Notes under the pieces: model-generated | The model's database searches: none | What the model was told of the DNA's origin: nothing | The model's input: the letters and a program-made list of their open reading frames with translations, nothing else | Origin: a virus | Virus record (IMG/VR): IMGVR_UViG_3300026533_000013 | Location: 1-32,452 of that record | DNA: 32,452 nucleotides | Direction: 5' to 3' (one strand) | In this document: positions 1,712-29,235 of the stretch, one piece after another | Position numbering within the stretch: the stretch's first letter is position 1 | Layout: every line of letters begins with the position of its first letter | Position numbers and translations under genes: made by a program

Positions 1712-2524
1712 TTAAGCTTCGTCTATATCAAAAGCGATAATACGGTTTGATTTGTCCGTTTCTGTTTCGATAATGTCAATACCATAAGATAAAACACCTT
1801 GAACCGCTACACCAAAAAAGCTTGCGTCCGTCATATCACGTGTTTCGTCGTAGTTTTTAGCTAATACTAAAGCCGACATATCTAAACCGATACAGTTCGA
1901 AACTGTAGCCGTCTTTTTAATAGAGTTTGATTTAAAAACTTCAATACCCATATATTTGCCGATATAACCCTCGTAAACCATATTAGAAGCTTTTTCACCT
2001 TGAAGTGCCGAACCTTGAAGTTCTACCAAAGTATTGATTACTGAAGGGCTACCAATACACGCACGGTCGTTCATTCCAACGTTAGCTAAATCGAACGCCG
2101 TAGCTAAACCGCTAAACGCTTTATCAACTGTAGCGATTACACCCGTTACCGTTACTTTTGCTTTTGAAGCTAAAGCCACTAAAGAAGCGTCTACGTCTAA
2201 AGCTAAACCTTTACCGGCTTCTTTTGTTACGTGACTTTTTAAGTTCGTTGGCGCTGTTGCAATATCTTTTACACCGTCAAGTTTAACCGAATAAAATGGC
2301 GCGTGTGAAATTTGAACTTTTTGGTTCGTACCGTCTAAATTTTGGTGTGTAATAGTTCCCGAATATTGACCGATTGTTACGGCTTCAGTTCCTAAAATGT
2401 CGATTGCTCCACCGCGTACGATTTGACCGTTATATAGTCCACGCGCTACCGACGGAACTACTGATTTTTCGATAAGGTTTGTTTCTACTAAATCCGTGAA
2501 GATTGTTATTTGTGCGTTAGTCAT
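1712..2524 (-). CDS. Major capsid protein (HK97-fold type)
   Basis: The 270-aa product starts MTNAQITIFTDL and ends IIAFDIDEA. It has the look of short HK97-fold capsid proteins without an N-terminal delta domain: an N-terminal arm with V-P-S-V-A-R-G, a central region with DVDASLVALASKAKV, then SPSVINTLVELQG and a beta-rich C-terminus with VQGVLSYGIDII. It lies directly downstream of the coiled-coil scaffold, the usual scaffold-capsid pair (XkdG position in PBSX). No separate head protease gene is present, in line with a separate scaffold and no cleaved arm. The call rests on pattern and synteny together. Confidence 0.87.
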   Translation of the reverse strand: MTNAQITIFTDLVETNLIEKSVVPSVARGLYNGQIVRGGAIDILGTEAVTIGQYSGTITHQNLDGTNQKVQISHAPFYSVKLDGVKDIATAPTNLKSHVTKEAGKGLALDVDASLVALASKAKVTVTGVIATVDKAFSGLATAFDLANVGMNDRACIGSPSVINTLVELQGSALQGEKASNMVYEGYIGKYMGIEVFKSNSIKKTATVSNCIGLDMSALVLAKNYDETRDMTDASFFGVAVQGVLSYGIDIIETETDKSNRIIAFDIDEA

Positions 2525-8559: not shown

Positions 8560-8752
8560 TGTCGTATTTATCTCTTATTTCTTCGGGTAGATTATCCCAT
8601 TTTTCGGCTTTATCCAATATTCTAATAAGCGCCCCGTCTTGAAAGTGTATACTTATAATCGAAGCATTTTTTATATCTGTTTTTTTTCCTTCCATTACTT
8701 CGCCTATATCTATTTCGTTTTCGTCCATTTTTATATTTATTGTTAGTTCCAT
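8552..8752 (-). CDS. Small protein between terminase subunits (66 aa)
   Basis: The 66-aa acidic product (MELTINIKMDENEIDIGEV, later HFQDGALIRILDKAEKWDNLP) has no recognisable domain. It starts 2 nt after the terminase small-subunit stop and overlaps the large-subunit ATG, so all three are co-translated. Position suggests a packaging accessory role or passive hitch-hiking; neither can be shown. Confidence 0.75.
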   Translation of the reverse strand: MELTINIKMDENEIDIGEVMEGKKTDIKNASIISIHFQDGALIRILDKAEKWDNLPEEIRDKYDNE

Positions 8753-8754
8753 TT

Positions 8755-9390
8755 TTAAAACTTCCCCTTAAAATCTTCGTCGCTATCTTTTAAAACAATA
8801 GTATTATTTATATTGTCGGTCTTCGGGGCGTGTCGTGGTGCTTCCCCTTTCGTTATCATAGCTTTGTCGTTTGCTTCTACTCCCTTCTTCATTTCGTCAT
8901 AGTCGCCAATTATTGATAAGTATTCTCTATGCTTGAATTCTACTCTTAAACGTGCGTCTAAGTCTTCCCCCGCTTCTTTTAAATCTCTCGCTTTCATAAG
9001 TATAAGAATTTCTATCGCGTCGGCGTCTGCTTTTTGTCTAAGTTCGATAATGTTTTGAAAGTTGGAAGCTAAACGGTGTGTCTTTTTTGCTTCGCTAAGT
9101 TGTTGTTGAAGGTCTGAAGCATAAACTTTTTTCGCTTCGGGTGTTTCTAAAAGTGTTTCCTTTTTTCGCAAAATCGTTTCTTTTGCTTCTAAAAGTTCGT
9201 CTTCTATTATAAGTAAGCCCACCTCTTCGCTAAGTGTTTCCTTCGTGGTTTCCTTTTGCCACCCTTTAGCCTTACTCTTCTTTGATATTTGCCCTTTAGA
9301 TATACCCGTAGCCGTTACGATTTCGCTTAAAGGTTTACCCGCTTCAAATAGTGCTTTAGCTTTCGCCCAAACTGAAGGTTTAATAGCCAT
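8755..9390 (-). CDS. terS: Terminase small subunit
   Basis: The 211-aa product opens with a helix-turn-helix of the small-terminase kind: WAKAKALFEAGKPLSEIVTA followed by TGISKGQISKKSKAKGW. The middle is a long charged helical region with ASDLQQQLSEAKKTHRLAS that could oligomerise. The C-terminus (NTIVLKDSDEDFKGKF) would contact the large subunit. It recognises phage DNA for packaging. The ATG overlaps the stop of a 29-aa ORF (TAATG). The PBSX XtmA family has this arrangement. Confidence 0.8.
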   Translation of the reverse strand: MAIKPSVWAKAKALFEAGKPLSEIVTATGISKGQISKKSKAKGWQKETTKETLSEEVGLLIIEDELLEAKETILRKKETLLETPEAKKVYASDLQQQLSEAKKTHRLASNFQNIIELRQKADADAIEILILMKARDLKEAGEDLDARLRVEFKHREYLSIIGDYDEMKKGVEANDKAMITKGEAPRHAPKTDNINNTIVLKDSDEDFKGKF

Positions 9391-10602: not shown

Positions 10603-10630
10603 TTTATAACCTTTTGTTTAATGTTTGTAA

Positions 10631-12517: not shown

Positions 12518-12544
12518 AATAAACCTTTTGTTTGATGTTTAAAA

Positions 12545-14468: not shown

Positions 14469-14495
14469 TTTAAAACCTTTTGTTTATTTTTGTAA

Positions 14496-15295: not shown

Positions 15296-15328
15296 TTGTT
15301 AAACCTTTTGTTTCTTTATTGATTAAAA

Positions 15329-15963: not shown

Positions 15964-15983
15964 TTTATTAACCTTTTGTTTTT

Positions 15984-17095: not shown

Positions 17096-17614
17096 TTATC
17101 TCTTTAATTTCTCTATACATTCGTAAGATAAAAGGAACATTTCGGTTTCTTTATCATCTGAAAGTAGTTCCCCGATTAGTTCGGCATTATCATCTAAATA
17201 ATTTTCGCTCTTTGTGAAGTATAAATAATCTTCGTGTAAAGTCTGATTTTGTCTTTCGTTGGGGTCGAAATTTACGAACAAAATATTAAGCGCTAATAGT
17301 TCTAAGTTTAAATCTATATTCATACTCTCGAACCAATAAAGAAGAACCCCTACATTCTTTAATCTCTTCTTCGCGTAGGCTTCGTCGTTTTCGTCGCATT
17401 GATAACCTATACCGGTTAAAACTTCTTTCGTCTTTTCTCGAAGTGTTTTAATCCGTCTATCTATCCGTTTATTTAACTTGTAGTTCTTATTGTCTGAATT
17501 ACGTCTTATCGCGTCTTTGTTTTCGTGTAGGCTTACTTCTAAAAGCGCCCCCGCGAAGTTTAATACCGCGAAGTCTTTAAGAACTCCACGACTTATCTTT
17601 TTCGTTGTCTTCAT
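17096..17614 (-). CDS. Unknown helical phage protein (172 aa)
   Basis: The charged helical product begins MKTTKKISRGVLKDFAVLNF and contains NKRIDRRIKTLREKTKEVL and ERQNQTLHEDYLYFTKSENY. The N-terminus is basic and the C-terminal third acidic. No nuclease, helicase or initiator motif is visible. As the largest unknown gene of the early block near a candidate origin, it could be a replication or regulatory factor, but that is only positional. The start has the AAACAAAAGGTTAAT box and overlaps the previous gene by 38 nt. Confidence 0.72.
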   Translation of the reverse strand: MKTTKKISRGVLKDFAVLNFAGALLEVSLHENKDAIRRNSDNKNYKLNKRIDRRIKTLREKTKEVLTGIGYQCDENDEAYAKKRLKNVGVLLYWFESMNIDLNLELLALNILFVNFDPNERQNQTLHEDYLYFTKSENYLDDNAELIGELLSDDKETEMFLLSYECIEKLKR

Positions 17615-17777
17615 AATTAACCTTTTGTTTTTCGTGTATTGTATTTATATTTTGAAAGTGCTTATTTAATGCTTTTCTTAGTTTGGGATTTTCTTCATTA
17701 AGTAATTGCTTTCTAGTTCGTATTAATTCATTCATAACCATAAAAGCGAAAGAAGCCCCTTCCGTTATCTTATCCAT
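17577..17777 (-). CDS. Unknown small helical protein (66 aa)
   Basis: A helical, basic product (MDKITEGASFAFMVMNELIR, then KALNKHFQNINTIHEKQKV). The ATG overlaps the stop of the 45-aa membrane protein (TAATG), and its end overlaps the 172-aa gene by 38 nt, a tight early operon. No domain recognised. Confidence 0.65.
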   Translation of the reverse strand: MDKITEGASFAFMVMNELIRTRKQLLNEENPKLRKALNKHFQNINTIHEKQKVNYEDNEKDKSWSS

Positions 17778-18630: not shown

Positions 18631-18672
18631 ATAAAATATGACTTCGGAGCCGTACGTTACGCTACACTATAC

Positions 18673-18704
18673 CCCCGTTAAGGGCGATTATACATTTAAC
18701 GGGG
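18673..18704. ncRNA. Hairpin with 9-bp CCCCGTTAA stem
   Basis: CCCCGTTAA (18673-18681) pairs perfectly with TTAACGGGG (18696-18704) around a 14-nt loop. It is unusually GC-rich for the region, which suggests selection for the stem. Confidence 0.5.
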
Positions 18705-18799
18705 CGGACGCTATTCCCCCGTATTATCTACGCCTACACTACTTAAAGTCGTATCGTTTAGAAGTATAAAAGTTTTCTTCGCTTACAGATAAGCCGTCG

Positions 18800-18858
18800 G
18801 TATGTGGATACTAGAAAACCACTCCATACGATAATATTTCTATTATCAAAGTTTTTTT
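18800..18858 (+). terminator. Paired hairpins ending in a T7 run (plus-strand sense)
   Basis: GTATG-TGG (18800-18807) pairs with CCA and CATAC (819-821 and 825-829 of the 18 kb block). A second hairpin, GATAAT/ATTATC (18830-18847), follows, then AAAG and seven Ts. It could end a plus-strand transcript, but the stem is AT-rich and the T-run is offset by 4 nt. Confidence 0.35.
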
Positions 18859-18926
18859 ATTAATAAGATTTAAAGTCGGTTAAATTGAAGTGAATATTTT
18901 AAAGTGTGGGAATTTCAGAATAAAGA

Positions 18927-19015
18927 GTTGCACCCTACCAAAAGAGCAACTAATTATTCTCTAATAGTCCTACACTCGAAAGTGTAGTCTATCGCTCTTT
19001 TGGTAGGGCTATTAG
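18927..19015 (-). ncRNA. Pseudoknot-forming structured leader or RNA
   Basis: GCTCTTTTGGTAGGG (18994-19008) is the perfect 15-bp complement of 18933-18947. Inside lies CTACACT-TTCG-AGTGTAG, a 7-bp UUCG hairpin in minus-strand sense (18970-18987). CTAATAG (19015-19009, coding strand) can pair with CTATTAG (18967-18961), interleaving with the long stem as a pseudoknot. GTTGC/GCAAC (18927-18950) offers a third, exclusive pairing. About 50 nt downstream of an extended -10 promoter, it looks like the leader of the early transcript. A DNA cruciform or centromere is the alternative. Confidence 0.6.
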
Positions 19016-19046
19016 AAAATATTAACAAAACTAAATTTAAGAACAT

Positions 19047-19064
19047 ATCTAAAACGATTTAGAT
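19047..19064. promoter_or_regulatory. Palindromic operator candidate ATCTAAA-N4-TTTAGAT
   Basis: Seven-base arms around ACGA, placed at about +1 to +18 of the promoter at 19071-19079. A repressor bound here would block the start of transcription. It differs from the GTATATAC element. Confidence 0.55.
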
Positions 19065-19070
19065 AGCGAA

Positions 19071-19079
19071 AGTATATCA
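19071..19079 (-). promoter_or_regulatory. Extended -10 promoter for the early leader transcript
   Basis: TGATATACT on the minus strand, preceded by a T-rich run (TTTTATATTTTTG). No clear -35, as is usual for extended -10 promoters. Predicted start near 19064 reads into the pseudoknot and the early genes. Confidence 0.55.
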
Positions 19080-19111
19080 CAAAAATATAAAATTTATCTT
19101 ATATTATAAAT

Positions 19112-19147
19112 CGCCCCCGAAACAAAAGGTTAATAAAGAACGGGGCG
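19112..19147. ncRNA. Hairpin whose loop carries the SD-box sequence or its complement
   Basis: CGCCCCCG (19112-19119) pairs with CGGGGCG (19141-19147), 7 bp with one bulged C. The 21-nt loop on the plus strand begins AAACAAAAGGTTAATAAAG, identical over 18 nt to the ribosome-binding region of the gene starting at 15963. It matches AAACAAAAGGTT at eight other genes. Transcribed on the minus strand, the loop is the exact antisense of those ribosome sites; on the plus strand it is a ribosome site with no start codon behind it. Confidence 0.6.
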
Positions 19148-19169
19148 CGAAGTCGAAATTATAACGTAA

Positions 19170-21390: not shown

Positions 21391-21420
21391 TGTTTAACCT
21401 TTTGTTTTAATTGAAAATGT

Positions 21421-28827: not shown

Positions 28828-29207
28828 TTTTTTTTTATAGTTATTCCGTTATCTTCTAAGTGTTCAACTAAAGAAGCGAATACTATAGTTATTTCGTCTT
28901 CGTCGAAGATTTTTTTAACTGCGCCTAACTGATTTTCGACCTTTAAAGCTTTAAGCATATCGTCGTCGATTTTAGTTATTAAACTTAAACTTACGGCTTC
29001 ATAAACTGCGTCTAAATTAGTCTTTCCGTCCTTGCTTACTGTAGAAGTCAAGTCCGATAAATTAAGCGTTAAAAAAGTAAAGGTAGAATTTAATCTTTTG
29101 TGTTCTATCGTTACTTCTTTATCTTCTTTCTTTTTACCTATTTCGTCCATATTCGCCAAAAGGCTATCTAAACTAAACTCTTTTAACTCTTCTTTTTTCT
29201 TTGCCAT
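28824..29207 (-). CDS. Tail assembly chaperone (XkdN-like)
   Basis: The 127-aa product, placed between tube and tape measure, is helical and charged (MAKKKEELKEFSLDSLLANM, AVYEAVSLSLITKIDDDMLK), ending NGITIKKK over a run of ten As. Its partner is the -1 product at 28672-28827. The two forms wrap the tape measure before the tube polymerises. The AAACAAAAGGTT box precedes the ATG. Confidence 0.85.
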   Translation of the reverse strand: MAKKKEELKEFSLDSLLANMDEIGKKKEDKEVTIEHKRLNSTFTFLTLNLSDLTSTVSKDGKTNLDAVYEAVSLSLITKIDDDMLKALKVENQLGAVKKIFDEDEITIVFASLVEHLEDNGITIKKK

Positions 29208-29235
29208 TTTTTAACCTTTTGTTTTGTGTTTGTTA

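Follow-up and report, generated by a model that had tools for sequence, protein, structure and literature searches.

The phage genome and its probable host

The window analyzed here is the entire IMG/VR record IMGVR_UViG_3300026533_000013 (32,452 bp) and is the genome of a phage with a contractile tail. Structural genes for TerL, a portal-like protein, the major head protein, sheath, tape measure and baseplate are present along with genes for a RecT/Bet-like protein, an exonuclease VIII-like protein, ssb, a DNA methyltransferase and a ParA-like protein, and nearly all genes are carried on the minus strand. Among plasmid records, the ssb product is nearest to Campylobacterota (58% for Campylobacter iguaniorum, followed by Sulfurovum, Malaciobacter and Caminibacter), and Nitratiruptor phages are the only phage records matching the exonuclease; both results make a member of the Campylobacterota the probable host. 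No lysogeny gene was identified in the window, which also contains no tRNA or tmRNA, and no nucleotide neighbors were found in the phage collection. The contig ends (1-1003 and 32112-32452, plus strand) are collagen-like, highly repetitive coding DNA with GGTCCG/GTGTCGCCT repeats, on the strand that almost none of the other genes use. The record is possibly circular, with its junction inside the collagen-like repeat.

A 12-nt box at nine gene starts

The word AAACAAAAGGTT has exactly ten exact copies in the window, nine on the minus strand and one on the plus strand. Each minus-strand copy lies 4-6 nt upstream of an ATG, and the nine gene starts and orientations listed in an earlier note on this DNA, made from the sequence alone, are correct:

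10608..10619, minus strand: box of the Dcm-type DNA methyltransferase gene (start 10602)
12522..12533, minus strand: box of a 111-aa ORF (start 12517)
14474..14485, minus strand: box of the RecT/Bet-like annealing protein gene (start 14468), whose orthologue in the related phage G001 has a changed box
15302..15313, minus strand: box of an 88-aa ORF (start 15295)
15970..15981, minus strand: box of a methyltransferase-like gene (start 15963), with an 18-nt match to the hairpin loop
16811..16822, minus strand: box of the exonuclease VIII-like gene (start 16805)
17619..17630, minus strand: box of a 172-aa ORF (start 17614)
21396..21407, minus strand: box of the ParA-like ATPase gene (start 21390)
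29213..29224, minus strand: box of a small gene between the tail tube-like and tape measure genes (start 29207), with a G001 orthologue that has a changed box

Alignment of the nine boxed leaders gives exactly 12 invariant columns, with conservation dropping on both flanks. The box contains the Shine-Dalgarno (SD) core AAAAGG, yet boxed leaders pair no better than other leaders with an anti-SD of assumed host type, CCTCCTTTCT (averages of -4.0 and -5.2, respectively), so that greater SD strength does not account for the length of the box. As the earlier note had remarked, the box is longer than an SD needs. Single copies of AAACAAAAGGTT precede ATGs in at least 120 other viral contigs. None of the other viral loci examined holds two copies, so a single box is simply a plausible ribosome-binding site (RBS).

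A hairpin with the antisense of the box in its loop

The one plus-strand copy of AAACAAAAGGTT (19120-19131) lies inside the loop of a G+C-rich hairpin in an intergenic gap; the earlier note had likewise described the only other copy as lying in a hairpin loop and opposite in orientation to the genes. The hairpin is neighbored by a lipoprotein ORF and small ORFs. The features of this region are as follows:

19112..19147, minus strand: hairpin, the proposed core of a small RNA (sRNA), with G+C stem CGCCCC(G)..(C)GGGGGCG and a loop of about 21 nt (from sequence and RNAfold; conserved in G001)
19120..19131, minus strand: loop core 5'-AACCTTTTGTTT, the reverse complement of the gene box (predicted unpaired, probability 0.74-0.99)
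19158..19163, minus strand: TATAAT, putative -10 of an sRNA promoter, 10 nt upstream of the stem
19079..19105, minus strand: A+U-only inverted repeat followed by TTTTT, a possible sRNA 3' end (from the inverted repeat and fold)
19086..19163, minus strand: 78-nt block kept in both phages (best local alignment), comprising TATAAT, hairpin and A+T-rich tail

The description of the structure as a 7-bp hairpin was close: the stem has six contiguous G-C pairs with further pairs past a one-base bulge, and RNAfold predicts nine pairs with one bulge on the minus strand (-14.6 kcal/mol). In a census of uninterrupted stems across the whole window (at least 6 pairs, 12-26 nt loop), no other long-loop stem has as many G-C pairs. 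A minus-strand RNA would present in its loop an exact 12-nt complement to all nine leaders, as had been claimed. For the 15963 leader the match reaches 18 nt (19120-19137); this sequence, AAACAAAAGGTTAATAAA, is exact and has exactly two copies in the record, again in keeping with the earlier description.

Rfam returned no match at gathering score for the hairpin, and weak matches to microRNA, SAM-III and rhtB families at the E-value threshold are implausible and were rejected as chance. An intrinsic terminator was also considered and rejected: the loop is 21 nt long, the stem is followed directly by AUUUAUAAU instead of a U-run, and the terminator scan called none.

Boxes and loop have changed together in a related phage

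Relatives were sought in viral contigs by protein scans with the product of the 19983 gene, the sheath, TerL and the exonuclease. The TerL scan yielded one close relative, IMGVR_UViG_3300033143_001691 (G001; loci L003, L127 and L128), in which TerL, RecT and the exonuclease are 80%, 78% and 81% identical to those of the window and gene order is the same. No further close relative was found in viral contigs, in genome contigs searched with TerL and RecT, or in plasmid records searched with TerL.

In G001 the box is GAAAAGGTT, replacing the window's CAAAAGGTT. It stands at seven ORF starts (3672, RecT; 3866; 6294; 7142; 19320, the tail gene; 28933; and 31222), and nine of ten copies, some within other reading frames, are followed 4-6 nt on by an ATG. 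One further copy, in antisense, is found in a hairpin of 10 bp whose position corresponds to that in the window. CAAAAGGTT is absent from all of G001, and GAAAAGGTT is absent from every gene start of the window.

L127:8852-8887, minus strand: G001 hairpin GCCCGUAGCU-UUUAAUUAACCUUUUC-GGUUACGGGC, in the intergenic gap directly past the last gene before the early region
L127:8897-8902, minus strand: G001 TATAAT, 9 nt upstream of the stem

The G001 loop carries AACCTTTTC instead of the window's AACCTTTTG, and as a whole (AACCUUUUC vs AACCUUUUG) it is antisense to G001's own box, not to that of the window, with a core match of 9-11 nt. The boxed orthologues common to the two phages are RecT and the tail gene, and both have the switched box. 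Because these two orthologues and the loop have all switched, the scattered boxes and the loop changed together, as expected of a base-pairing regulator acting in trans; the covariation between pairing region and targets consists of one position (C/G) within the 9-12 nt match in two genomes. Pairing of the stem is also kept despite sequence change (GCCCCG/CGGGGGC in the window vs GCCCGUAGCU/GGUUACGGGC in G001). The relative thus has both of the things that the earlier note had looked to related phages for, compensatory stem changes and a loop that fits its own altered box, and the outcome that would have told against the idea, a relative with boxes and without the matching hairpin loop, was not encountered.

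When the two intergenic regions are aligned locally, the best-scoring stretch is the 78-nt block, which begins with TATAATTT in both phages. Its score is 44; shuffled sequences averaged 22 with a maximum of 36, and none of 500 reached the observed score.

A 172-aa boxed gene occupies the same place in both phages (17096-17614 in the window and L127:6624-7142 in G001). Orthology of the two was rejected because the proteins show no similarity; the gene has been replaced and the box retained. A perfect box also precedes an ORF of about 11 codons in G001 (L127 ~1771-1792, minus strand), possibly a leader peptide under the same control.

Other elements of the intergenic region

The gap at 18633-19169, about 500 nt without convincing genes, is long for a tightly packed genome. 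A second, larger structured element lies downstream of the hairpin (18933-19008, minus strand; L127 ~8735-8800 in G001). It has a 15-16 bp stem (CCCTACCAAAAGAGC/GCTCTTTTGGTAGGG; GCTACCAAGCGACTTC/GAAGTCGTTTGGTAGC) enclosing an inner hairpin, and its arms differ between the phages and still pair. The 3' arm has alternative pairings with downstream sequence, in the manner of an attenuator, and no Rfam family was found for the element. The gap also holds CCCCGTTAA/TTAACGGGG (18673-18704).

In each phage several boxes are preceded, at a distance of about 15 nt, by a palindrome, AAGTATATACTT, which is probably an early-promoter or operator motif overlapping a -10. Positions of GTATATAC in the window are 10631, 12545, 14496, 15329, 15365, 16833, 17065, 3222, 3334 and 1689; the palindrome positions in G001 are 3895, 6326 and 8825. 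One of the G001 copies lies next to a promoter, TTTACA-17-TATAAT, in the interval that separates the hairpin from the second element.

Origin of the putative RNA and the active strand

The stem is preceded in each phage by a TATAAT 9-10 nt away, and transcription could start just ahead of the hairpin. No sigma-70-type -35 was found by scan, and Campylobacterota promoters often lack a clear -35. The scan called no standard terminator either, the A+U repeat at 19079-19105 included, and no equivalent of that A+U hairpin is evident in G001. Since the scans found neither a -35 nor a standard terminator, the ends of the putative RNA are uncertain, and a late transcript could be its source.

That last origin leads to the most serious alternative, in which the late/lysis transcript carries the hairpin in its 3'-UTR and releases it by processing. 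Antisense would then be present only with late transcription and would turn early genes off late in infection. This is a variant of the antisense reading, with the same pairing mechanism and a different origin and timing. In both phages the hairpin stands about 20 nt past the last gene before the early region, which together with the missing -35 suits such an origin, and sRNAs derived from 3'-UTRs are common. Against this, the spacing between TATAAT and stem is shared by the two phages, which suggests a promoter of the RNA's own, and one boxed gene, the tail gene starting at 29207, sits within the late block. We give this origin a minority share of the probability, as a possible variant that is less likely than an independently transcribed RNA.

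An RNA read from the minus strand is nonetheless not the only way to use the hairpin. The earlier note had offered a choice between an antisense RNA and a decoy ribosome site, and the plus strand, as RNA or DNA, would indeed show the box itself in the loop and could act as a decoy, drawing off the ribosome or a phage protein that recognizes the box. If a single binder used both loop and boxes, their covariation would be just as expected; the box, at 12 nt, goes beyond an SD in length and sharpness, and the window's plus-strand fold is also stable (-14.1 kcal/mol). In G001, however, two of the ten stem pairs form as G-U on the minus strand, whereas the plus strand would have A-C mismatches there, and the minus strand folds as a simple ten-pair hairpin at -15.6 kcal/mol vs -13.4 for the plus strand. 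The conserved upstream TATAAT is likewise present on the minus strand only, the nearby genes are all on the minus strand with no plus-strand ORF following, and nothing about a decoy would require both phages to have it at this place and in reverse orientation. Because the G-U pairs are possible on the minus strand only and TATAAT precedes the stem by 9-10 nt in both phages, we prefer the antisense part of that choice and consider the decoy unlikely.

Predicted pairing of loop and leaders

For the antisense RNA that we favor, folding predictions leave the loop core mostly unpaired and the boxes moderately open. On the boxed leaders of the window, the mean duplex energy was -16.6 kcal/mol for the window loop vs -10.9 for the G001 loop, and on G001 leaders it was -13.9 kcal/mol for the G001 loop vs -12.0 for the window loop, a modest difference; these energies are partly circular, as the boxed leaders were selected by their box. 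Composition-shuffled loops reached the own-loop mean in 0/500 trials for the window and 1/500 for G001. Some unboxed leaders pair well with the loop too, because the SD core is shared.

Positive regulation by sRNAs exists, and the RNA might instead activate translation of the target set, for instance through the unfolding of a leader structure or protection of the mRNA. The SD itself would lie within the duplex, however, and the window leaders are predicted to be mostly open already (box unpaired at 0.55-0.78), so that there would be nothing to open; we regard activation as improbable.

The specificity of the arrangement was assessed by a blind search for 8-10 nt words repeated before ORF starts with their reverse complement elsewhere in a G+C-rich stem loop. 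In the two phages the search recovered the 19112-19147 hairpin and its G001 counterpart and nothing else, and 777 kb of other viral loci gave no match. Across 2.9 million viral contigs, a first hairpin pattern matched G001 only; a second, looser pattern gave nine matches, among which only G001 has such a hairpin with boxes nearby. Coincidence of a purine-rich SD-like word with its complement in an unrelated terminator-like hairpin is therefore a very remote prospect: SD-like words are common in this genome and the hairpin follows a gene, where terminators occur, but an order-3 Markov model predicts 0.0045 plus-strand copies of the 12-mer (0.00001 of the 18-mer), the hairpin is kept and matched in G001, the control loci are empty, and the long loop without a U-run directly past the stem is unlike a terminator.

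A proposed translational regulon

Our model has its basis in what the two genomes display, namely the boxes, the hairpin, their exact complementarity and uniqueness, the synteny, the matched C-to-G change and the kept stem; to these it adds transcription, promoter use, pairing in trans, repression and timing as predictions. We think it likely that a minus-strand sRNA pairs through its loop with the RBSs of seven to nine genes and blocks their translation. The intergenic gap between the lysis/late end and the early genes would encode this RNA, which would probably start at ~19150 from the TATAAT promoter, form the hairpin with its ~21-nt loop, and end about 70 nt on or past the next structure. 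The loop, 5'-AUUAACCUUUUGUUU, would offer the exact antisense of the 12-nt box holding the SD core of nine genes encoded elsewhere (complementarity of 12-18 nt). Pairing would begin at the loop and extend over 12-18 bp, so that the duplex would cover the SD and spacer and, in the best targets, reach the start codon region. Ribosome binding would be prevented and translation of the whole set lowered. The predicted targets are RecT, the exonuclease, the methyltransferases, ParA, small early ORFs and one tail gene. As for the role, our guess is that the RNA either keeps the phage in a state resembling a prophage or carrier or turns early genes off later.

A broader and more tentative reading, to which we assign somewhat less than an even chance, is that the shared 12-nt box is the address of a translational regulon read by one hairpin RNA, and that sister phages use different, matched codes. 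If so, one RNA that uses a repeated RBS box to reach a gene set would do for translation what a repressor with multiple operators does for transcription. Such a regulator would be easily retargeted, which would explain the co-evolution of box and regulator, and would confer RNA-based immunity against a phage's own kind and not between sister phages. The search rule gained here, a word repeated at gene starts with its antisense in a hairpin loop, is applicable to all phage genomes, and few phage regulators have been characterized in the Campylobacterota, the likely host phylum.

Comparison with known regulatory RNAs

Known phage antisense RNAs each act on one or a few genes, and P4 CI RNA is among the regulatory RNAs of phages. 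Others are lambda OOP, P22 sar, VpdS of VP882, PreS and 24B_1 (PMC12197685). All of these are phage-encoded RNAs that set phage expression by pairing, as proposed here; in contrast to the window hairpin, OOP and sar are cis-encoded to one target, and VpdS and PreS depend on Hfq. For none of them does that review describe an RBS box that is common to the targets and marks them as a regulon (PMC12197685).

In the likely host phylum, CJnc190 of Campylobacter jejuni and RepG of Helicobacter pylori use a C/U-rich loop to pair with an mRNA leader or RBS and repress translation, and C. jejuni lacks Hfq and ProQ (PMC8687705). The C/U-rich sRNA loop is a likeness to the element described here. These RNAs differ from it in being chromosomal and in reaching host mRNAs through G-rich stretches, not through a repeated phage box.

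The closest precedent is c4 RNA of P1/P7, a phage antisense RNA that binds around the RBS of a phage mRNA, with the complementary stretches likely in loops, and that determines heteroimmunity between sister phages (PMC12197685). Antisense directed at an RBS through loops is common to both, and the window and G001 carry different matched loop/box codes. The c4 RNA has one target (ant), whereas the window loop matches the box before seven to nine separately placed genes. Membership of the hairpin in the c4 kind was rejected on context: no ant-like gene adjoins it, there is no antirepressor operon and hence no ant target in the same transcript, and Rfam gave no match. The earlier note knew of no phage regulator of this design; the principle of a loop directed at an RBS is in fact known from c4, while the one-to-many design was not found in the literature searched, most subscription papers being outside its reach. 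The novelty lies in the one-to-many address: many genes share a box that a single loop would read, in a lineage-specific code.
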